The notes under the pieces were generated by a model. It ran no database searches. It saw only the letters and a program-made list of their open reading frames with translations, and was not told the origin of the DNA. From IMG/VR virus record IMGVR_UViG_3300032322_000238, positions 1 to 21,404 of that record: DNA of 21,404 nt. One strand, 5' to 3'. Origin of the DNA: a virus. Position numbers and translations under genes: made by a program. Positions 1-20,585 of the stretch are shown here, one piece after another. Numbering within the stretch: position 1 is the first letter of the stretch; every line of letters starts with the position of its first letter.

Positions 1-447
1 CCAGACTTCGGTGAAGTTCAGGTAGACCAAATTCTTGACGTTGCTAAACTTTACAAGCAGGGTATGCAGGTTAATCTTGCAACTGCTTTCGCTGAGGCTA
101 CCCTTGAGAATCTTCTCTTGGCACTAGCATTCAGTTCAGATGAACTAACTGGAAATGTCGCAACTCACACAGGTAAGTCATTAAACTTGTCTGCAGGAGA
201 TATCGGCGAATGTCCAGTAGAACGTGGAATCGTTGCTGTTGGACCAGGTACAGGTGACTGCGTAGACTCTCCATTCGTGGAGCGTGTTTACACTGCTTAC
301 CGTGCACTCTCAATCGAGAATGTAACTGTTTCAGCAAAGCGTGACGAAGCATCAATGTTCGAAGTTTCATTCCGTCTTCTTCCAGAAGATGTTTCAGGCT
401 CATACGGTAAGATCGTAGATCGTACCTTCGGAGACCTTCTTTCTTAA
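1..447 (+). CDS. major tail (tube) protein, C-terminal part, 5' end outside window
   Basis: The reading frame is open from base 1 and ends with TAA at 445-447, giving 148 visible codons. The real start lies upstream; the internal ATG at 64 is not needed. The product is a soluble beta-rich protein with no membrane segment, ending YGKIVDRTFGDLLS. Major tail protein is inferred mainly from position: the gene immediately before the tail chaperones and tape measure normally encodes the tail tube subunit. Its codons also fit a very abundant protein (CGT for Arg, frequent ATC, CTT and GTT, little ATA), unlike most neighbours. A strong terminator follows 19 bases after the stop, as expected for the end of a highly transcribed structural unit. 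Another virion protein cannot be excluded, since only the C-terminal part is seen. Confidence 0.65.
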   Translation, partial: PDFGEVQVDQILDVAKLYKQGMQVNLATAFAEATLENLLLALAFSSDELTGNVATHTGKSLNLSAGDIGECPVERGIVAVGPGTGDCVDSPFVERVYTAYRALSIENVTVSAKRDEASMFEVSFRLLPEDVSGSYGKIVDRTFGDLLS

Positions 448-466
448 TTATTTTAAGAATCAGCAC

Positions 467-500
467 AGCCCATATCTTCGGATGTGGGCTTTGTTGTTTT
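467..500 (+). terminator. Rho-independent terminator with cUUCGg tetraloop
   Basis: A 10-bp stem pairs 467-476 (agcccatatc) with 481-490 (gatgtgggct), with a single G-U pair. The loop is TTCG closed by C-G, a very stable tetraloop. The U-rich tail TTGTTGTTTT follows at 491-500. It lies between the major tail protein stop and the long chaperone start, so it should sharply reduce read-through from the tail-tube gene into the assembly genes. Confidence 0.9.
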
Positions 501-501
501 A

Positions 502-510
502 TGGTAGAAT
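502..510 (+). promoter_or_regulatory. extended -10 promoter, near-leaderless start for the long chaperone
   Basis: TGGTAGAAT is an extended -10 (TG, one base, then TAGAAT at 505-510) directly after the terminator T-tract. I see no convincing -35. Transcription would start around 517 and the ATG is at 520, so the mRNA would have a leader of only about 0-3 nt. No Shine-Dalgarno precedes the ATG (gaatttcc). This suggests weak promoter activity and leaderless translation, a common mode in actinobacteria. The box is seen directly; the start site is inferred. Confidence 0.5.
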
Positions 511-519
511 AGAATTTCC

Positions 520-1215
520 ATGGCAACTAATATATATAATACACAAATAGTAGAATTATTTGATGGTAAAGAATTAGAAATAATACCATTAAAGATTAAA
601 TATCTTCGTGAGTTTATGACGGCATTTGATGATATAAAATCATCTAAAGATGATGACGCTGCAATAGCGGTTCTAGTAGAATGCACAAGAATTTGCATGA
701 AACAATATTGTCCAGAAATATCAAATACAGTAGATCAAATAGAAGACAGTCTAGATATGCCAACTATATATAAAATACTTGATACTGCTGCAGGAATTAA
801 GATTAATAAAACATCTGAAGAACCAGTAAAAGAACAAGCCGAAAAGAGTGGTGAAACTTGGGAAACCCTAGATTTAGCAAAACTTGAATCAGAGGTTTTT
901 TTACTGGGTATTTGGAAAGACTATCAAGAATTAGAGAAGTCAATGTCAATGCCAGAACTACTGGCTACTCTAGAAATAAGTAGAGAACTAGATTATTCAG
1001 AAAAGAAGTTTATGGCTGCTATTCAGGGGGTTGATCTAGAAGCCCAGTCACAGCCAGAGCGAGGTCAGCAAGAATGGGAAAATCTTAAGGCTAGAGTATT
1101 TAGTAAAGGACAAACCAGCGATGCTAACGATATATTATCTTTGCAAGGACCAAAAGCAAGGAGTTTAGGGTTCGGAATCGGGAATGGTCTTGATTACGAA
1201 GATTTAACAAAATAA
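520..1215 (+). CDS. tail assembly chaperone, long form (N domain plus C-terminal T-like domain)
   Basis: The product (231 aa) is a cytoplasmic chaperone expected to bind the tape-measure protein and recruit tail-tube subunits, equivalent to lambda gpGT. Residues 1-93 match the next gene's product at about 37 of 93 positions with one single-residue gap; shared segments include LVEC, PLKI and YKI. Residues about 94-116 are a charged linker. Residues about 117-178 carry the T-like part, with SMPELLATLEISRELDY followed by KKFMAAIQGVDLE, typical of the downstream half of frameshifted phage chaperones. The last 50 residues are polar. Both halves are in one uninterrupted frame, so no frameshift is needed to make the long form. 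Codons differ from the short paralogue: in the N domain I count 10 ATA among 14 Ile codons. The start lacks a Shine-Dalgarno and sits beside a -10 box, so low expression is inferred. Confidence 0.8.
   Translation: MATNIYNTQIVELFDGKELEIIPLKIKYLREFMTAFDDIKSSKDDDAAIAVLVECTRICMKQYCPEISNTVDQIEDSLDMPTIYKILDTAAGIKINKTSEEPVKEQAEKSGETWETLDLAKLESEVFLLGIWKDYQELEKSMSMPELLATLEISRELDYSEKKFMAAIQGVDLEAQSQPERGQQEWENLKARVFSKGQTSDANDILSLQGPKARSLGFGIGNGLDYEDLTK
897..903 (+). other. T TTT TTA heptamer in frame for -1 slippage (function uncertain)
   Basis: Within the long chaperone gene the codons read GTT TTT TTA from 895, so T TTT TTA lies in the correct register for -1 frameshifting at residues 127-128. The -1 frame after it stays open for about 26 codons before a TAG, which would give a product of about 154 aa with the T-like domain replaced. 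I see no strong stimulatory structure at the usual 5-9 nt spacing. The heptamer is a direct observation; its use is speculative. Confidence 0.2.
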
Positions 1216-1232
1216 GCGTTTTATGCTATAAT
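1204..1232 (+). promoter_or_regulatory. strong sigma70-type promoter for the short chaperone and tape measure
   Basis: TTAACA (1204-1209) is separated by 17 bases from TATAAT (1227-1232), with an extended TG at 1224-1225. This is near consensus. The -35 lies in the last codons of the long chaperone. A consensus Shine-Dalgarno, AGGAGG (1246-1251), stands 5 bases before the ATG at 1257. Transcription would begin near 1239 and would include the tape-measure gene. Confidence 0.8.
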
Positions 1233-1256
1233 TGAGTTAACTTATAGGAGGAACAA

Positions 1257-1580
1257 ATGGCAACAACCACGCATGAGGCTGAAAAAGTCACTCTCATTGA
1301 TGGAACTATTATCAACGTTCGTCCACTTAAGATCTCACTTCTTCGTCCATTTATGAAGAAGTTTGAAGGGGTGGCAAAAGTTGCGGAAGATAACGAGAAG
1401 TCTATGACTCTACTCGTAGAATGTGTTCAGATTGCTATGGAGCAATACAAGCCAGAATTGGCTGGGGACATTCAGAAGTTGGAAGAATTACTTGATCTTC
1501 CAACAGTGTACAAGATCGTAGAGGCAGCATCAGGTATTAACTTGACAGCAATTTCAGACGTTCTTAGCGCACAAGAATAA
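1257..1580 (+). CDS. tail assembly chaperone, short form (N domain only)
   Basis: The product is 107 aa, equivalent in domain content to lambda gpG or HK97 gp13, the abundant short chaperone that coats the tape measure before tube polymerisation. It aligns from residue 1 to about 94 with the N domain of the preceding gene, including DG at 15-16, PLKI at 23-26, LVEC near 53-56, and PT.YKI near 82-87. It ends about 13 residues later without any T-like domain. No T-like sequence lies in any frame before the tape measure, which begins 25 bases downstream, so this copy cannot frameshift into a long form. The near-consensus promoter, AGGAGG, and codon use (no ATA among 9 Ile codons, both Arg CGT, 7 AAG to 2 AAA) all indicate high expression. 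Paralogy is seen directly; the chaperone role follows from position and family. Confidence 0.8.
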   Translation: MATTTHEAEKVTLIDGTIINVRPLKISLLRPFMKKFEGVAKVAEDNEKSMTLLVECVQIAMEQYKPELAGDIQKLEELLDLPTVYKIVEAASGINLTAISDVLSAQE

Positions 1581-1605: not shown

Positions 1606-4600
1606 ATGGCTGATGTTAATGCCAATATTGGCGTAAATATTGACACGTCTTTAGCATTAGCACAACTTAAGTCTCTTCAGAGACAGATATCACAATTTCA
1701 TACCTCTATAGCAAGATCCAGCGAAACCGCTGCACTTGCTCAGAAGTCTCTGCAGAAGAACTTCCTAAATAGCGTAAATGCTATTGGGTCGTTCTCTGCG
1801 GAACTTCGAACAGTCAAAACAACTACAGAATCATTCACATCATCTCTTGAGGGCAATAAGTTCTCAATGCGAGAATACTTCCGATATGCGGGAGGGGCTA
1901 CAAAAACCTTTGGTCGTTTATTTAAATCTGAATTTGACACAATCGGCAAGGTAGCAGAAGAACGTGTTAAAAGACTTCAAACCCAATATATTAAAATGGG
2001 TCGTGATGCCAATGGAGCAATGCAGGCTATATCCATTACGCCTACTGCTTTGGATATGGAAAACTATGGTACAAAAACAGCCATAGCCGCACAGAAGCAA
2101 GCACTGTTTAATCAGTTAATGAGACAAGGTTCAACAAACCTTTTGAACTTTGGTAAAAATACACAGTGGGCTGGTCGTCAACTTATGGTTGGTTTTACTA
2201 TTCCACTTGCCATGGTTGGCAGCGCAGCCACAAAAACCTTTATGGATATGGAAGCCCAAGCACTTAAATTTAGAAAAGTTTATGGAGATTTGTTTACACC
2301 AAAAGAAGAAACTCAACAGGCATTAGATAATATTACAGAACTTGGAAAGCAATTTACAAGGTATGGAGTAGCAGTATCAACAACTGTTGGTTTGGCTGCA
2401 GAAGCAGCGGCTGCAGGCTTTTCTGGACTTGATCTACAAAGACAGACAACAGAAGCAACAAGACTATCTATCCTTGGACAACTTGACAGCCAAAAGGCTC
2501 TTGAAACAACAATATCCTTACAAAATTCTTTTGGTATGTCTTCAGAAAAACTTGCAGATTCTATTAACTTCCTTAACGCAGTTGAAAACCAAACCGTTGT
2601 ATCTCTTGACGATATTACTACTGCGATTCCAAAGGTTGCTCCAGTAATTCAGCAACTTGGTGGAGATGTAAAAGATTTAACATTCTTCATGGCAGCAATG
2701 AAAGAAGGAGGCATCAATGCTTCTGAAGGTGCTAACGCACTTAAGTCTGGTCTTGCAGCCCTGATTAATCCAACTGGAAGAGCATCTGAGATGCTTAAGT
2801 CTTTTGGAATTAATGCTAAAGAAATTGTTACAAGTAATAAGGGAGATTTAAAGGCAACAGTTATTGAGTTTGCAACAGCACTTAACCAACTTGATCCACT
2901 TAATAGAGCACAGGCTATTGAGCAAATGTTTGGAAAGTTCCAGTTTGCTCGTTTGTCAACACTTTTTGCAAACGTTGCTAAAGATGGAAATCAGGCTGCT
3001 CGTGTTCTTGATTTAGCAAACTCATCTGTTGAAGAACTATCTACACTTTCTGAGCAAGAACTTGGAATGACAGCAGATTCGGCAATGAACAAGTTTAAGA
3101 AAACTGTTGAAGATCTTAAAATTGCTCTTGTTCCAGTAGGAAAGGCTTTCCTTGAAGCAGTAACTCCAATTGTTGAGTTTGCAGGAAATATTCTTGAAAA
3201 GTTTGGAAGCCTTTCTGAAGGAACTAAAAAAGCAATCACATTGATGGTAACTGTAATAGGTGGCCTTGGTCCAATCTTACTTATGACATTTGGTTTGCTT
3301 GCTAACGGTGTAGCAAATATAATTAAGTTATTTTTAACACTTCGTAATGGATACCTAAGATTAACTGGACAGTCTCAAATTCTTGGTGAATCAACTCAGT
3401 ATTTAACCATGGAACAAATAGAGGCTGCGGCTGCGTCTCACTCTCTTAATCAAGCACATGCAACTCTTACTCAACAGTTTACCGCAGAAGCAAGTGCCGT
3501 AAATCAACTTATTTTAGCATATCAAAATGCTACTAAGGCTGCTGCTGCATTTGCAATAAGTAATCCTGGAGCAATGCGTCTACCAATGAAAAAGTTTGCT
3601 GATGGTGGAATTGTTCGTGGTTCTGGAGGACCAACGGGAGATAAGATTCCAATCATGGCTTCAGATGGTGAAGCAGTAATTCCTGCAAGAACTGTTAATG
3701 CTAATAAAAAAATAATTGGTGAATTGTTATCTACAGGTACCTTTAAACCAAAAGTAGATGTAACTGGATCTTCTGGCTCTGCCGCTAGAAGCAGTTTTAG
3801 TTATAGTGGCGTTAATCGTCTTCTTAGAGGAGAAGGAATGCCAGGGGCAACTGTTGGTGTTCCAGGAAATATGCCATCACAATCACAATCAAGAAGTTTA
3901 TTTAAGTCAGTAGACGTTCCTGGTGCGATGGATGTATCTCACTTTGGTAACAAACAAACCAGAACTGGTCAAGAACTTGTTAAAATGGTTGAAGGACTAG
4001 AAACAACCCTTGCTAATAATATTAGAAAAATGGTTGCAAGTGTAGATAATGGAGCAACTGAAACTTTTAGAGTATTCGATAATCAGGTTGTAGCACAATT
4101 AACTGAGATCAACAGACTCATGGATAAAAAGGGTAAGGCTAATTTAAATAAAGTAAAAACAAATATAGTAGGAGATGCCTTTGCCCCAGTAAGAGATATT
4201 GAATTACAAACACAGTTAGAAGCAGCAAGCGTTCCCCTTCAAGATATTAAGGTCATTAATCAAAAACTAACTGATGAAATGAAGATTGGTTTTAATAAAC
4301 TTGGAGATGCAACAGAAATTACATCAGACCAACTTGATAAATTAATTAGAGAAGCATACGAGGCAGTTGCAAAAACTGATGAGCGTGTAGCAAAAGCATA
4401 TTCTAGAATGAAAGAAATTACAACTGTATTTGAGCCTGGAAAAAATATTGATGGACAGTCTATTCGTGGAAAACGAATTCCAATTACTACAGATTCTTAT
4501 GTTGCAAAACAAAAAACAAAGATAAGGGGTAAAAATGTTTTCAGAGGTGCTCAAGAAAGAATGTCTGCTCCTGGAGAAGTTCCTTATCCAGAAATTGCTA

Positions 4601-7600
4601 GATTTGGTATAAATGAAAAAATGATTCAAGGTTTAGGCTTAAATGTTAAAGAAGCCCAAGCCAAGTTTAAGGAATTATCAGATACAACAAAGGTAGAGTT
4701 ATCAAAATTACAAGGCAGTGCAAAAGAGTTTGCAATAGCATTTAAAGGTGCAATTGATGAAGTAGAAGCATCTGGAGTAGCGCTTGGACAAGCCGCTGTA
4801 AAGTCTATTGGCAAAGGTGCAAAAACATCATCACCATCTAAAGACACAATTAAAACTGGCGAAGATGTTGGCAAAGGCCTTGAACTTGGAATGCAAAGTC
4901 GTAAAGACGATGTTGCAAGAGTTGGTCAATCCCTTGGAGAAACTGCTACACAAAGTACACAAAGTGGATCAAGAAGAGTTGCAACAAGGCCACAAGGAGC
5001 ACCAAGTGTACCTGTAAGTCAGGTTGCTGGATCAGCACCAATTAGTCCAGATCTTAAGCAAAAGGTTGTAGAACAAGCAAGAATAACACAAAATGCTTCA
5101 GATAAACTAAGAAGCCTTGATAGAAATATTATGGGTGCATCATTTGCTATATCAAGTTTATCTGGATTGGCATCTATGACTGGTGGCACACTTGGAGAAA
5201 TGTCTGGAACTATATCAAAAGTAACTGGAGCAATGTTTGCATTGCAAGCAGTAACTGGTTTACTAACACAAACAAATATGATTTCTCTTCTTCAGAAAAG
5301 AGCAGAGACAGCAGGAATCCTTGTTGGTAATGTTGCTACAAAAAAGATGGGCTTAAATACAACTCTATTCTCTGGTGGAATAAAGAAACTACTTCCTAAT
5401 CTACTTAACTTTGGCAAAGTTATTGCTAGATTCCTAGGGCCAATTGGATTAGCAATAACAGCCTTCGGCGCAACAGTATCTATTATTAAGATGGTCAATG
5501 CTGCTAGAGAACGTGAAAGACTTGCTATTGAAGGTTTGGGAGACGCAGCACTTTTATCTACAGACAAACTTAAGACTCTTGGAGATTTCTTTGGTATAGT
5601 TCCTACAAAATCACCATTAGAACAGGCAAAGCCAGTTACAGTTGTTTCAGCACAAGAAAGAACCAAGGTTGATGAACTTCGTGGAAGCGAAGCATTCCAA
5701 AGAGATTTTGGTAAAGATATTCAAGCACTTAAGGGTGCTACAAATAAGCAAGCAGAGTTAGTCCTAAAGGCAGTATCTGTTCAGTTAAAGGGTAAAGGCT
5801 TTCAGCAAGAACAAATTCAAACTATTATTACAGCCCTAAAGGATGAAGCAGGCAAGACAGAGGTAAAGTTAGACTTTAAAGCCCTAGATCTATCTACAGA
5901 TGCTGGAGTTGCAGCAGTAACTAGTGATGTAAATACTCTTCTTAATTCTTATGGTAAGGCTTTTGAAAAAGGGTATTCATCCAAGGTAAATAATGCCATC
6001 AGTTATGCAACTGGCGAGACCGTTTCTTGGACAACAGAAACAATATCAAAGGGTCTGCAAAAAAATGTAAATACAGCATCAAAGTCAATCGGTGGCTTTA
6101 TGATCGGTATATCTGGTCAATTTGCTAATGGAACTATTAATGCAGAAAAGTTTAATCAATCTTTTGATGGAATTTCAAATAAAATAAAAGATATGCCAAG
6201 GGCTGATGCTTTATTCTTAATGCAAAATGTATTAAAGAATTTACCATCAGAACTAGCCCAATCAGCAGCGGGAATTAAAAATGTTTCAGACCAACTACTT
6301 ATTGCTAAAGCAGCAGCATTAGGTGTAGCAACTATTACACCAGCAATGGTAAAGCAATTAAAGGCAGCAGCAGACTCTGGTGAAGGTGCAGCAAGTAGAG
6401 CAGCCTCTAGAGTTAGAGCAAAGATTAATGCTGATATGAAGGCAATACAAACATTGATAGGAAGCGTTGTAGAATCTACAAAAGACTTCCAAGACCTAGG
6501 TGATACTGGTGGTCCAAAAGATGATCCATTTGCATTTTTACAGCCACTAGTAGACAACCTTCGTAATACAAGAAATGCAGCAATTGGAGCCTTTGGCCCA
6601 CTAGAAGCCATAAAGCAGTTGGCTGCTGGAAAGATTAAGTTGGGTGGGTTTGATAAAGGTTTAACTGCACAAATAACAAGTGCTTTAGGTAAGTCAAAGA
6701 TTAAGCCAAATGATGATTTTATAAACGCTGTCTTAGGTCTAGATCAAAAGACGTTTGATAAAGTCAAGAAAACTTTATTTACATTTAAAAATGGTGTAAT
6801 CACGGGAATGACTCCAGTTGGAGAGTCTCTTGCAAAAGCCTATGGAACAGCAGCAGTAAAACCACTAGATGATTATATTAGAAAGCAGATGGAGGCAACT
6901 ACTGGAAGTGTTGCTCAACAAACCGCTTTCCTTAAACTTGCTAATCTTGGTGTTGATCTTGCTACTGCATATGACATGGTTACTAATACTGAAGATGCAG
7001 CATCTATAAATACAGAAAAAAATAATGACAAACTAAAGGCTGCAACAACAAACTTTACTGCTGCAAAGGCTGCAGCAAAAGCATATGAAGAACAACTTCA
7101 GCAGGTTGCAGAGCGTTCACGTTTACTAGCAGATACAAGTCCTGAAGGACAGGCTGCTGCTTTTGCTAAAGGTTTTGACGATGCAATGCAATATTTTGAT
7201 GCAACATCTGCATTAATTGAATCACAGCGTAATGGCGCTGCTGTTTATAAGGCATATAACAAAACCATTGAAGAGCAAACAGATAAACTTGCACAGGCTC
7301 AGATTGTTGTAGATGGATATCAAAAAACAATTGATGATGCACAGTTTGACCTTGCTTACAATACTACATACGGACAAAAGGTTATTGATAGCCTAAATGC
7401 ACAAATTGAAACAATACAACGTGCTATTGACATTAATTTTGAACGACCATTACAAGCACTTTCTGAAGAAGGTGATAGACTTTCTAATACTCTATCACTT
7501 ATTGATAGACAAGAATCTAAGATCAATGAAAAGTACGATGCCCAAGCAGCAGCCCTTACAAAAATATCAGAGATTAATTCTGAAATTGCTAACCAGCAAA

Positions 7601-8709
7601 AGCAACAATTAGGATTGGCCGATGCTTTATCTCGTGGTGATATAGCCGCAGCCGCTGCTGCAGCCCAAGAGATGAGAGCACAGGCAGCAGCAAACGCACA
7701 GGGTAGACAGTCGGGAGTTCTTGAGTCTGCACGTACAGCAGAACTTGCTGGAGTTACAGTTAATGGAATGACAAGGGCACAGATTGAAGAGCGTCAATTC
7801 CAAATATCACAACAAAGTTTTGCATTACAACAAGCACGTCAACTAAAAGAAGCAGAGATTGCTGCAATTACGGAACAGATTTATCAGAAAGAACTTCTAC
7901 GTAAGCCAATCATGGAAAACATTGCTAGGGCAGAAGAAAATATTGCAATATATAAGAGAAGTACTTTGGAGCCAGCACAAAGATTGCTTGACACTGCAAC
8001 AAAAGAAAAAGAGCAGTATGATAAAATTACACAAAACCTTATTGATGGAATAAACTATCTTGGACAAACAAAAGAAGGATGGATTGCAGCAAATGTAGAG
8101 ATTGAGGCTGCAAAGGCATCTGGAGAAGGTTTAGAGGCTTCAATGCTAAAGGCAAAGGGATATACAGATGCAATTGCTGCAAAGTGGAAAGAACTTGATG
8201 GTAAGGTAATTACAACAACTCATAATGTTATAGAAAACAGAACTGTATATGTAACAACAATAAATGTTCCTGGTGCTAAACCTACAGGTAAAATGTACGG
8301 TGGAAAAATAATGGCTATGAGTGCTGGAGGAATGGTTCCTAAGTATATGGCTAGAGGTGGTGCAGTTGGATCTGATACTGTTCCAGCCATGCTCACGCCT
8401 GGAGAATTTGTAATGAATAAAGGTGCAGTAAAGCGCTTTGGTCCAATGCTAGAAAATATGAATAACTCTAAGTATCCATCTATGATTAAAGACTTGACAC
8501 CAACTACCTATACAAATGTTAATTCATCTATGGTAACACCAATTATTAATAATGTGTCTACAAGTGTTAGTGACAACTCCAGCACCATGTATAATTATAA
8601 TGTAGGGATTAATGTTAATGAATCTAATGCAAGTTCTGGCGATATTGCAAGAGCAGTTATAGGTCAAATTAAGTATATTGATTCCCAGAGAATTAGAGGG
8701 CAGAGATAA
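1606..8709 (+). CDS. tape measure protein
   Basis: At 2367 aa this is the largest gene here. It would sit in the tail lumen, set tail length, and be ejected with DNA. Residues about 190-430 look like the TP901-type tape-measure core, with repeated Ala/Gly-rich helices such as TTVGLAAEAAAAGFSGLD. Hydrophobic stretches occur near residues 541-579, 1177-1222 and 1268-1298, fitting membrane-spanning segments used in DNA delivery. Residues about 1800-2180 are long Ala/Gln/Glu-rich helices, probably coiled coil. A Gly-rich motif of the type GG.V..G...D.IP.M...GE.V occurs twice, at residues 667-691 and 2251-2269. The start is fixed by GAGGTG at 1594-1599. The stop TAA shares its last A with the next ATG (TAATG). 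At about 0.15 nm per residue the tail would be near 350 nm if the whole chain acts as ruler. Confidence 0.93.
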   Translation: MADVNANIGVNIDTSLALAQLKSLQRQISQFHTSIARSSETAALAQKSLQKNFLNSVNAIGSFSAELRTVKTTTESFTSSLEGNKFSMREYFRYAGGATKTFGRLFKSEFDTIGKVAEERVKRLQTQYIKMGRDANGAMQAISITPTALDMENYGTKTAIAAQKQALFNQLMRQGSTNLLNFGKNTQWAGRQLMVGFTIPLAMVGSAATKTFMDMEAQALKFRKVYGDLFTPKEETQQALDNITELGKQFTRYGVAVSTTVGLAAEAAAAGFSGLDLQRQTTEATRLSILGQLDSQKALETTISLQNSFGMSSEKLADSINFLNAVENQTVVSLDDITTAIPKVAPVIQQLGGDVKDLTFFMAAMKEGGINASEGANALKSGLAALINPTGRASEMLKSFGINAKEIVTSNKGDLKATVIEFATALNQLDPLNRAQAIEQMFGKFQFARLSTLFANVAKDGNQAARVLDLANSSVEELSTLSEQELGMTADSAMNKFKKTVEDLKIALVPVGKAFLEAVTPIVEFAGNILEKFGSLSEGTKKAITLMVTVIGGLGPILLMTFGLLANGVANIIKLFLTLRNGYLRLTGQSQILGESTQYLTMEQIEAAAASHSLNQAHATLTQQFTAEASAVNQLILAYQNATKAAAAFAISNPGAMRLPMKKFADGGIVRGSGGPTGDKIPIMASDGEAVIPARTVNANKKIIGELLSTGTFKPKVDVTGSSGSAARSSFSYSGVNRLLRGEGMPGATVGVPGNMPSQSQSRSLFKSVDVPGAMDVSHFGNKQTRTGQELVKMVEGLETTLANNIRKMVASVDNGATETFRVFDNQVVAQLTEINRLMDKKGKANLNKVKTNIVGDAFAPVRDIELQTQLEAASVPLQDIKVINQKLTDEMKIGFNKLGDATEITSDQLDKLIREAYEAVAKTDERVAKAYSRMKEITTVFEPGKNIDGQSIRGKRIPITTDSYVAKQKTKIRGKNVFRGAQERMSAPGEVPYPEIARFGINEKMIQGLGLNVKEAQAKFKELSDTTKVELSKLQGSAKEFAIAFKGAIDEVEASGVALGQAAVKSIGKGAKTSSPSKDTIKTGEDVGKGLELGMQSRKDDVARVGQSLGETATQSTQSGSRRVATRPQGAPSVPVSQVAGSAPISPDLKQKVVEQARITQNASDKLRSLDRNIMGASFAISSLSGLASMTGGTLGEMSGTISKVTGAMFALQAVTGLLTQTNMISLLQKRAETAGILVGNVATKKMGLNTTLFSGGIKKLLPNLLNFGKVIARFLGPIGLAITAFGATVSIIKMVNAARERERLAIEGLGDAALLSTDKLKTLGDFFGIVPTKSPLEQAKPVTVVSAQERTKVDELRGSEAFQRDFGKDIQALKGATNKQAELVLKAVSVQLKGKGFQQEQIQTIITALKDEAGKTEVKLDFKALDLSTDAGVAAVTSDVNTLLNSYGKAFEKGYSSKVNNAISYATGETVSWTTETISKGLQKNVNTASKSIGGFMIGISGQFANGTINAEKFNQSFDGISNKIKDMPRADALFLMQNVLKNLPSELAQSAAGIKNVSDQLLIAKAAALGVATITPAMVKQLKAAADSGEGAASRAASRVRAKINADMKAIQTLIGSVVESTKDFQDLGDTGGPKDDPFAFLQPLVDNLRNTRNAAIGAFGPLEAIKQLAAGKIKLGGFDKGLTAQITSALGKSKIKPNDDFINAVLGLDQKTFDKVKKTLFTFKNGVITGMTPVGESLAKAYGTAAVKPLDDYIRKQMEATTGSVAQQTAFLKLANLGVDLATAYDMVTNTEDAASINTEKNNDKLKAATTNFTAAKAAAKAYEEQLQQVAERSRLLADTSPEGQAAAFAKGFDDAMQYFDATSALIESQRNGAAVYKAYNKTIEEQTDKLAQAQIVVDGYQKTIDDAQFDLAYNTTYGQKVIDSLNAQIETIQRAIDINFERPLQALSEEGDRLSNTLSLIDRQESKINEKYDAQAAALTKISEINSEIANQQKQQLGLADALSRGDIAAAAAAAQEMRAQAAANAQGRQSGVLESARTAELAGVTVNGMTRAQIEERQFQISQQSFALQQARQLKEAEIAAITEQIYQKELLRKPIMENIARAEENIAIYKRSTLEPAQRLLDTATKEKEQYDKITQNLIDGINYLGQTKEGWIAANVEIEAAKASGEGLEASMLKAKGYTDAIAAKWKELDGKVITTTHNVIENRTVYVTTINVPGAKPTGKMYGGKIMAMSAGGMVPKYMARGGAVGSDTVPAMLTPGEFVMNKGAVKRFGPMLENMNNSKYPSMIKDLTPTTYTNVNSSMVTPIINNVSTSVSDNSSTMYNYNVGINVNESNASSGDIARAVIGQIKYIDSQRIRGQR

Positions 8710-19401: not shown

Positions 19402-19722
19402 GTGTATCATCATAAGCCAATTAAAAACTTTGGCATAAGTGGAAACATTTATGATGAAGCACACATGCCAAGGCTTAAAAATGAATATACTTGGCTTGTT
19501 GTCTCTCAAATGAGAACAAAAGGATATGTGCCAAGATTTGACATAGATCCTGATTTTACGGTACAATATAATGAGAACAAAGAAATATTTGAATTTGAAC
19601 TAACAGTGTATGGAATATATGTAGGAAAAAGGAAGAGTGAATGGATAGCAGGAATAGACGAACACAAGGCGATATTTATACAGAAGAACAAATCAGAAGA
19701 GTACTTAACGGAATCGGCGTAG
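19402..19722 (+). CDS. hypothetical protein between helicase and primase
   Basis: The product is 106 aa with a GTG start, which is the first possible start because the frame has a TAG at 19396. Visible features are YTWLVVSQMRTKGYVPRFD, IDPDFTVQYNENKEIFEFEL and VYGIYVGKRKSEWIAGIDEH, alternating like a small alpha/beta fold; no cofactor, zinc or nucleotide motif is seen. The C-terminal 27 codons overlap the primase in another frame by 82 bases. This overlap, and its place between two replisome genes, suggests a small protein acting at the fork, but nothing in the sequence states a function. The start is near-leaderless, which predicts low or separately controlled translation. Confidence 0.6.
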   Translation: MYHHKPIKNFGISGNIYDEAHMPRLKNEYTWLVVSQMRTKGYVPRFDIDPDFTVQYNENKEIFEFELTVYGIYVGKRKSEWIAGIDEHKAIFIQKNKSEEYLTESA

Positions 19723-20585
19723 ATGTAGAAGCAGAGTTCGGTAATGAATTAATCGTATACTGTCCATATCATAATAATACAAGAACACCAGCAGGAGAAA
19801 TATCAAAAGAGTTTGGTAGATTTTTTTGCTTCGGATGCCAAGCAACAAAAGGTTTAGATGAGTTTGTAATGACTATATCTGGGCGTACATATTTTGAAGC
19901 AATTAGATACATTAAGAGCAAGGGTCAAGAGACTGACCTAACTTCTGTTATTAATAAAACACTTTATAGTCCACCTGACTTTGTTCCATATGACGAATTA
20001 CTTATAAAGAGATTGCATAATCAGGCTATGGAGTCTCCAAGAGCAATAAGATATTTTGAAGGTCGTAAGATAACCAAGGAATCAATGATTAAGTTTTCTT
20101 TGGGCTATTCAGCAAATCAAGACTCAGTAATTGTTCCAATGCATAATCACGAAAGTATGTGTTTAGGCTTTGTTGCTAGAACTGTTGAAGGTAAAGAGTT
20201 TAAAAATACTCCAGGATTACCAAAGAGTAAAATATTATTTAACTTAAATAGAATCAAAGCGTCTAATACAGTTTATGTTGTAGAATCATCTTTTGATGCT
20301 ATCCGTTTGGATCAAGTAGGTTTCCCAGCAGTTGCTACTCTGGGTGCTAATGTGTCTGTATCTCAGATCAGGCTATTAGAAAAGTACTTCAATAATGTTG
20401 TACTTATTGCAGACAATGATGAAGCAGGCGTAATCATGTCCGAAAAGTTAATTGAAAAACTTGGGTCAATGGTTACGATTGTGAATCTAGATAAAAAATA
20501 CAAAGACATAGGTGATATGGATGATGAGTCAATTAAGAAACTTGAGTTCTCATTTGACAGTTCTATCACTGCTATGCTAAAATAA
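19641..20585 (+). CDS. dnaG: DnaG-type DNA primase (zinc finger and TOPRIM)
   Basis: The product (314 aa) makes RNA primers at the fork. The zinc-binding site is C41-P-Y-H44 with C63-F-G-C66 (CHC2 type). The RNA polymerase domain follows (RAIRYFEGRKITKESMIKFS), then TOPRIM: the catalytic glutamate is E215 in YVVESSFDAIRL, where the usual Gly after Glu is Ser, and the metal-binding acids D258 and D260 lie in ADNDEAG. The C-terminal helicase-interaction domain of bacterial DnaG (about 580 aa in total) is absent, as in many phage primases. AAAGGAAG just upstream supports ATG 19641, which lies inside the preceding gene. The primase end carries the promoter for the ssDNA-binding protein. Family assignment is confident; partner choice is inferred. 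Confidence 0.9.
   Translation: MDSRNRRTQGDIYTEEQIRRVLNGIGVDVEAEFGNELIVYCPYHNNTRTPAGEISKEFGRFFCFGCQATKGLDEFVMTISGRTYFEAIRYIKSKGQETDLTSVINKTLYSPPDFVPYDELLIKRLHNQAMESPRAIRYFEGRKITKESMIKFSLGYSANQDSVIVPMHNHESMCLGFVARTVEGKEFKNTPGLPKSKILFNLNRIKASNTVYVVESSFDAIRLDQVGFPAVATLGANVSVSQIRLLEKYFNNVVLIADNDEAGVIMSEKLIEKLGSMVTIVNLDKKYKDIGDMDDESIKKLEFSFDSSITAMLK
20554..20583 (+). promoter_or_regulatory. strong promoter for the ssDNA-binding protein gene
   Basis: A consensus TTGACA (20554-20559) is separated by 18 bases from TAAAAT (20578-20583), with an extended TG at 20575-20576. It lies in the last codons of the primase. A leader of about 20 bases follows, with AAAGGAG (20599-20605) before the ATG at 20611. 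Confidence 0.75.

Follow-up and report, generated by a model that had tools for sequence, protein, structure and literature searches.

Most long-tailed phages make a short and a long tail assembly chaperone through a ribosomal frameshift, and this is among the best conserved recoding events in phages. Siphovirus chaperones of this kind were reportedly found by Xu and colleagues in 2004 to be generally produced by −1 frameshifting. In lambda, gpG and gpGT are made by −1 frameshifting at a molar ratio of roughly 30:1 (PMC5009743). The locus considered here raises the question of how the two isoforms are provided when the long form is encoded in a single open frame and the short form in a gene of its own. 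The DNA analyzed, hereafter the window, is the whole stretch of 21,404 nucleotides of IMG/VR record IMGVR_UViG_3300032322_000238 (positions 1 to 21,404), and the virus is a siphovirus-like, uncultured phage with a distant relationship to the Stanwilliamsviridae. We judge it likely that this locus encodes tail assembly chaperones whose abundant short (N) and scarce long (N-T) isoforms are made from two genes instead of by −1 frameshifting.

The chaperone locus and its products

The following features were located on the plus strand of the window:

1..447, +, 3′ part of the tail-tube (major tail protein) gene; phrog_2175 (Ig-domain protein), 4e-23
467..500, +, intrinsic-terminator-like hairpin (467-490) and T-rich tail, between the tail-tube and long chaperone genes
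502..510, +, predicted extended −10 promoter of the long gene, TGGTAGAAT, 9 nt 5′ of the ATG; no Shine-Dalgarno sequence
520..1215, +, long tail assembly chaperone, 231 aa, one open frame
1204..1232, +, predicted promoter of the short gene, TTAACA-17 nt-TATAAT with a TG extension (11/12 hexamer matches), overlapping the 3′ end of the long gene
1246..1251, +, Shine-Dalgarno sequence of the short gene, AGGAGG
1257..1580, +, short tail assembly chaperone, 107 aa, N domain only
1606..8709, +, tape-measure protein gene, 2367 aa; phrog_10030 (tail length tape measure protein), 1.7e-102, and PF10145, 2e-26

The long chaperone is composed of an N domain (roughly residues 1-100), a linker, a T domain (roughly residues 114-197), and a conserved C-terminal tail. 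The two chaperone ORFs are separated by 41 bases, and the tape-measure protein, encoded 25 bases past the short gene, is the expected client of the chaperones. Homologues of the tail-tube gene are labelled “major tail protein” and lie directly 5′ of the chaperone in Patelgo, MulchMansion, and Coruscant. The window was also scanned for Rfam families and tRNAs, and none were found. Near its far end, the first start codon of a primase-like ORF (19641-20585) is located 82 bases inside the preceding ORF (19402-19722), and the true start of the primase-like ORF is probably further downstream.

An earlier note on this DNA had read the long ORF as an N domain joined in a single frame to a T-like domain and the short ORF as a separate gene with an N domain only. 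Both readings were confirmed by the ORF coordinates, the first also by PHROG matches and by homology to annotated chaperone ORF pairs in other phages. Both ORFs matched phrog_10504 (3e-23 and 3e-19), and the long form additionally matched a separate PHROG, phrog_10474 (4e-13), which would be expected to stand apart if other phages encode the T part as an ORF of its own. Functional names are thereby gained for phrog_10504 and phrog_10474. The chaperone homologue in MulchMansion was matched at 39% identity over 92%.

The similarity proposed for the two N domains was upheld, although its count of 37 of 93 residues was corrected to 40 identical residues of 101 (40%; 68 positives, E 2e-27). Profile-profile comparison of the two N domains gave a probability of 99.95% (E 3e-38). 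AlphaFold models were built from locus-only alignments and were of moderate confidence (pLDDT 73.1 for the long protein and 71.5 for the short); in both, the predicted N topology was a beta hairpin at residues 9-21 followed by helices at 26-41, 45-64, 71-78, and 80-92. The fold that the note had suggested the two N domains share is backed by the profile comparison and by the same predicted order of elements. The HK97 gp13 chaperone (2OB9) was the top match of the long model using VIA (Z 4.3, among unrelated entries near 4) and ranked second using Foldseek, weakly at E 1.6; it was not among the matches of the short model by either program. No Foldseek match was significant for either model, and the 2OB9 match of the long model is only consistent with a chaperone fold. 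Searching the sequences of solved structures turned up no relative, and no Pfam model fitted the chaperones.

Purifying selection was observed across the loci, with median dN/dS values of 0.13 for the long N domain, 0.06 for the T domain, and 0.116 for the short gene. Both genes are thus maintained.

Layouts and slippery sequences among relatives

Relatives were sought by tblastn in 50,697 phage records, of which only Streptomyces phages (127 records) and a few Rhodococcus phages matched. Homology to the N and T parts was found in 124-132 phage records, many of which are annotated as “tail assembly chaperone”. IMG/VR was scanned with each of the two proteins and with profiles of the N and T domains as queries, which together with the phage records yielded 335 loci. 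The identifiable relatives (Streptomyces Stanwilliamsviridae, Rhodococcus Trinavirus, and IMG/VR contigs) are all tail assembly chaperone loci and lie between the major tail protein and tape-measure genes. The order tail-tube, chaperones, tape measure was found in 140 of the first 162 loci, and nearly all of the others were cut by contig ends. A scan of bacterial and archaeal genomes returned no relative of the short gene and a single relative of the T domain, in a frameshifting locus (CAINGU010000031.1, L336). This tail locus lies on a contig of 110 kb that was assigned to the MAG of an uncultured cyanobacterium, possibly through a binning error, and does not show the host.

Two layouts were distinguished, leaving aside loci at contig ends, a pair of highly divergent N domains from Rhodococcus phages, and a single N domain that is split. 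The two-gene layout, a fused N-T gene followed by an N-only gene, was present in 140 distinct sequences including the locus in the window, so that the survey of relatives proposed in the earlier note recovered the arrangement many times over. The frameshifting layout, a single N/T locus with T in the −1 frame overlapping N, was present in 82 distinct loci. Among cultured relatives, T was in the −1 frame and overlapped the end of N at all 13 loci examined, and a joined CDS is annotated in three records (Patelgo, NiceHouse, and Francesca). In many Streptomyces phage records, such as that of Faust (NC_070783; L168, 2525-2827), the T part appears in the annotation as a gene of its own or as a truncated one, and not as a joined frameshift product. 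For annotators, a missing frameshift or the presence of two chaperone genes need not mean an annotation error.

Two loci (L187 and L188) were considered as an intermediate carrying an extra N domain before a frameshifted N/T pair, and this was rejected: the N domain of a frameshifting chaperone (2546-3013) is broken there by an insertion of roughly 30 residues. No true intermediate between the layouts was found among the surveyed loci.

A canonical X XXY YYZ heptamer in the N frame (CCCAAAC, CCCAAAT, or GGGAAAC) was present in 72 of the 82 frameshifting overlaps. Within the overlaps heptamers occurred at 0.0529 per codon, compared with 0.0014 inside N, and the other two frames had none. Such heptamers are carried by the Rhodococcus phages, by many of those of Streptomyces, and by the majority of uncultured relatives. 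The slippery sequence of the cultured phages is GGGAAAA or near it in Rhodococcus phages and CCCAAAT in the Loccivirinae. Within the Boydwoodruffvirinae (L163, 4280-4345, as well as L165, L167, L169, L175, and others) the −1 overlap of N and T lacks a canonical heptamer, and a conserved site, GAC CCG GAA (CCCGGAA), occupies the place where relatives have CCCAAAC or CCCAAAT; these phages may rely on another or a weaker slippage signal.

In the two-gene class the heptamer was absent from 126/140 long-gene junctions and from 123/140 short-gene tails. No T-like sequence was found 3′ of the short gene, where both shifted frames close within 60 nt past the stop in 140/140 loci. In the window, the long gene reads through in a single frame, the short gene has no T frame after it, and neither the long-gene junction nor the end of the short gene holds a CCCAAA or GGGAAA heptamer. 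The earlier observation that the long form comes first, with nothing T-like after the short gene, therefore held, given how soon the shifted frames close and the tape-measure gene begins. These counts also bear on whether frameshifting might persist in the short or the long gene, with the second gene only tuning dosage. A-rich or TTTAAA heptamers do occur near the junction (14/140) or the short-gene end (17/140), but those remaining are mostly of other types than in the frameshifting loci, and with no T-like frame to enter and neither heptamer in the window, we consider persistence very unlikely.

Origin of the two-gene layout

On the T-domain tree the two-gene class required one change and was nested in frameshifting lineages, near the GGGAAAC group. 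As read from this tree, frameshifting is the ancestral state of the chaperone family and the two-gene layout is derived, with a single origin. The opposite polarity, in which the two-gene layout came first and the frameshifting loci arose by losing one copy, draws on the fact that the root rests on a few divergent outgroup sequences from Rhodococcus phages. It is nevertheless extremely improbable, given that the outgroup and all deep branches frameshift, that the two-gene clade is nested, and that lambda-like phages generally frameshift.

In the N-domain tree the N domains of the long genes (longN, 99/96) and of the short genes (shortN, 100/98) each formed a clade. ShortN was nested among the N domains of GGGAAAC frameshifting loci, and longN fell outside shortN and its nearest frameshifting group (99/84 and 100/92) on a long stem of 0.48. 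Holding longN and shortN together as one clade was not rejected by the AU test (p 0.216). The tape-measure tree placed the two-gene class together, except that a frameshifting locus (L320, of which L303 and L326 are near copies) fell inside it. The neck, tail-tube, and frameshifting chaperone of this locus (L320, 1-6297) are those of a frameshifting lineage, and its tape measure is closest to the two-gene lineage. It looks like a chimera joined at the chaperone/tape-measure border, which would mean that tail modules recombine in these phages and suggests that tape measures of the two-gene lineage can work with a chaperone made by frameshifting.

These placements allow for an import, in which the long gene was acquired from a related phage by recombination and the resident locus then lost its T part. 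The branching of longN outside shortN is as expected under such a history, and the chimera indicates that tail genes recombine in the group. However, the T domain of the long gene is nearest to the frameshifting lineage with GGGAAAC, which is also where shortN is placed, the AU test does not reject long and short as one clade, and longN is a long branch. We regard import as possible but doubtful; more likely, longN is a tandem copy of the same locus.

Duplication followed by in-frame fusion in one copy, which the earlier note had offered as a way in which recoding could have been replaced, is well supported as a history, since frameshifting is ancestral on the trees, the derived layout has a single origin, the heptamer is mostly gone, and no T sequence follows the short gene. 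On the sequence evidence, the replacement happened once, in the common ancestor of a large clade, where the original N/T locus with its slippery heptamer gave way to a fused copy upstream and a copy with N alone downstream. Because the loss is placed on the tree, between frameshifting sisters and 140 distinct two-gene loci, close relatives can be compared for what the frameshift is for (ratio, co-translation, or compactness), and these phages form a natural test of how a conserved frameshift can be lost.

The chaperones of lambda (gpG/gpGT), of the Stanwilliamsviridae (Patelgo genes 37/38), and of Trinavirus (NiceHouse genes 68/69) occupy the same position between tail tube and tape measure and likewise comprise N and N-T isoforms; those of the latter two groups have N and T domains homologous to those in the window. 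Each of the three systems uses one gene with T in the −1 frame, and usually a slippery heptamer, whereas the window has two genes without a recoding signal and with separate predicted promoters and starts.

T4 genes 26 and 51, which we take to be the chaperone pair of the T4-like phages, encode paralogous proteins (E 2e-6, 20% identity) and are divergently transcribed, unlike the pair in the window, which is co-directional with the long gene first, is 40% identical, and has a predicted split between leaderless and leadered starts. No relation was detectable between T4 gp51 and the long form in the window (BLASTP E 1.0), and the short-form profile matched gp51 with a probability of 1.4%. PF12322 gave one match among 52 N proteins of the family, at chance level (E 0.03). 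According to a summary (PMC10885494) of Vladimirov, Gautam and Davidson (2022, Virology 566:9-15), T4-like phages have, in place of frameshifting, a short chaperone gene and a long fused one; as far as that summary describes it, this arrangement is shared with the window as a layout only. Two-gene chaperones are thus not unprecedented. The present case is phylogenetically resolved and, as the proteins tested have no detectable relation and the transcription arrangement differs, most likely represents an independent origin in another phage group. Two chaperone ORFs expressed separately “without an evident frameshift” have been reported for subclusters of Microbacterium phage Cluster EA (PMC7302621), which are likewise actinobacterial phages with no apparent frameshift and are not described there as having a fused long gene and a paralogous short gene. 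The searchable literature contained no description of the present two-gene clade or of a leaderless/leadered split.

Start anatomy and the isoform ratio

Start regions were compared across 47-48 two-gene representatives at <80% identity, and promoters and leaderless starts were called by consensus. A terminator precedes the long gene in 43/47 representatives (0.7/47 in shuffles), as it does the chaperone in 31/39 frameshifting relatives, and none lies between the long and short genes (0/47). An extended −10 with at least 7/8 matches was found before the long gene in 46/47 (97.9%, versus 4.8% in shuffles) and ends 5-9 nt before the start in 41/47; no long gene (0/48) had a Shine-Dalgarno core of at least 4 nt. 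The short gene has a Shine-Dalgarno core of 5-7 nt in 48/48 and TGNTATAAT, with 8/8 matches, 23-35 nt before the start in 43/47. The tape-measure start, used as a control, had a promoter in 2/47, which is not above chance. Frameshifting relatives mostly have the same kind of promoter and Shine-Dalgarno leader as the short gene. Codon adaptation to the tail-tube gene was higher for the short gene than for the long N domain in 40/43 loci, which parallels the higher adaptation of N than of T in frameshifting relatives.

The mRNA of the long gene is predicted to be leaderless or nearly so because the −10 is close to the ATG and a Shine-Dalgarno sequence is lacking. Together, the terminators, promoters, and control predict nested transcripts: one covering the long gene, short gene, and tape measure from the upstream promoter and a second covering the short gene and tape measure from a stronger internal promoter. 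As the start anatomy of each gene is conserved and differs from that of the other, the isoform ratio probably depends on how transcription and translation are initiated and not on slippage, a proposal that goes beyond the earlier note. The short copy shares the promoter and Shine-Dalgarno type of the frameshifting relatives, and the long copy has a weaker promoter-like element, at a position from which a leaderless message is predicted. Initiation at a Shine-Dalgarno sequence versus leaderless initiation, along with the better codons of the short gene, would keep the short form well above the long. Reporter measurements in M. smegmatis make lower output from a leaderless message plausible in direction, since such a message can give less protein than a leadered one (PMC7148126), although leaderless efficiency can equal that of some leadered messages, is not always poor in actinobacteria (PMC7148126), and actinobacteria may not be the host of this phage. 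By analogy with lambda G/GT, the tape-measure protein would carry a coat of many short and few long chaperone molecules, and the latter would bring in tail-tube subunits through their T domains.

A shared coat of this kind would not be required if the functions were split, with the long protein acting at one place (tail initiation or delivery of the tube protein) and the short protein alone chaperoning the tape measure. The long N domain is only 40% identical to the short one, sits on the long stem described above, and is less conserved between loci (mean identity 0.61 versus 0.75), all of which would fit such a division. Yet both N domains share the predicted order of elements and core motifs, their dN/dS values are alike, one N domain fills both roles in the frameshifting relatives, and a scarce protein freed from double-frame coding would also be expected to change faster; a split of functions is therefore considered unlikely. 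On balance, we lean toward a replacement in which a conserved, ratio-fixing frameshift gave way to a pair of paralogues whose ratio would follow from the mode of initiation, leaderless for the scarce long form and, for the abundant short one, a Shine-Dalgarno start under a stronger nested promoter. Frameshifting sister lineages still exist.

Six two-gene loci (L136, L140, L141, L143, L145, and L157) depart from the usual spacing, with the −10 of the long gene sitting 14-20 nt before the start and followed by a short G-rich leader, which was perhaps regained.
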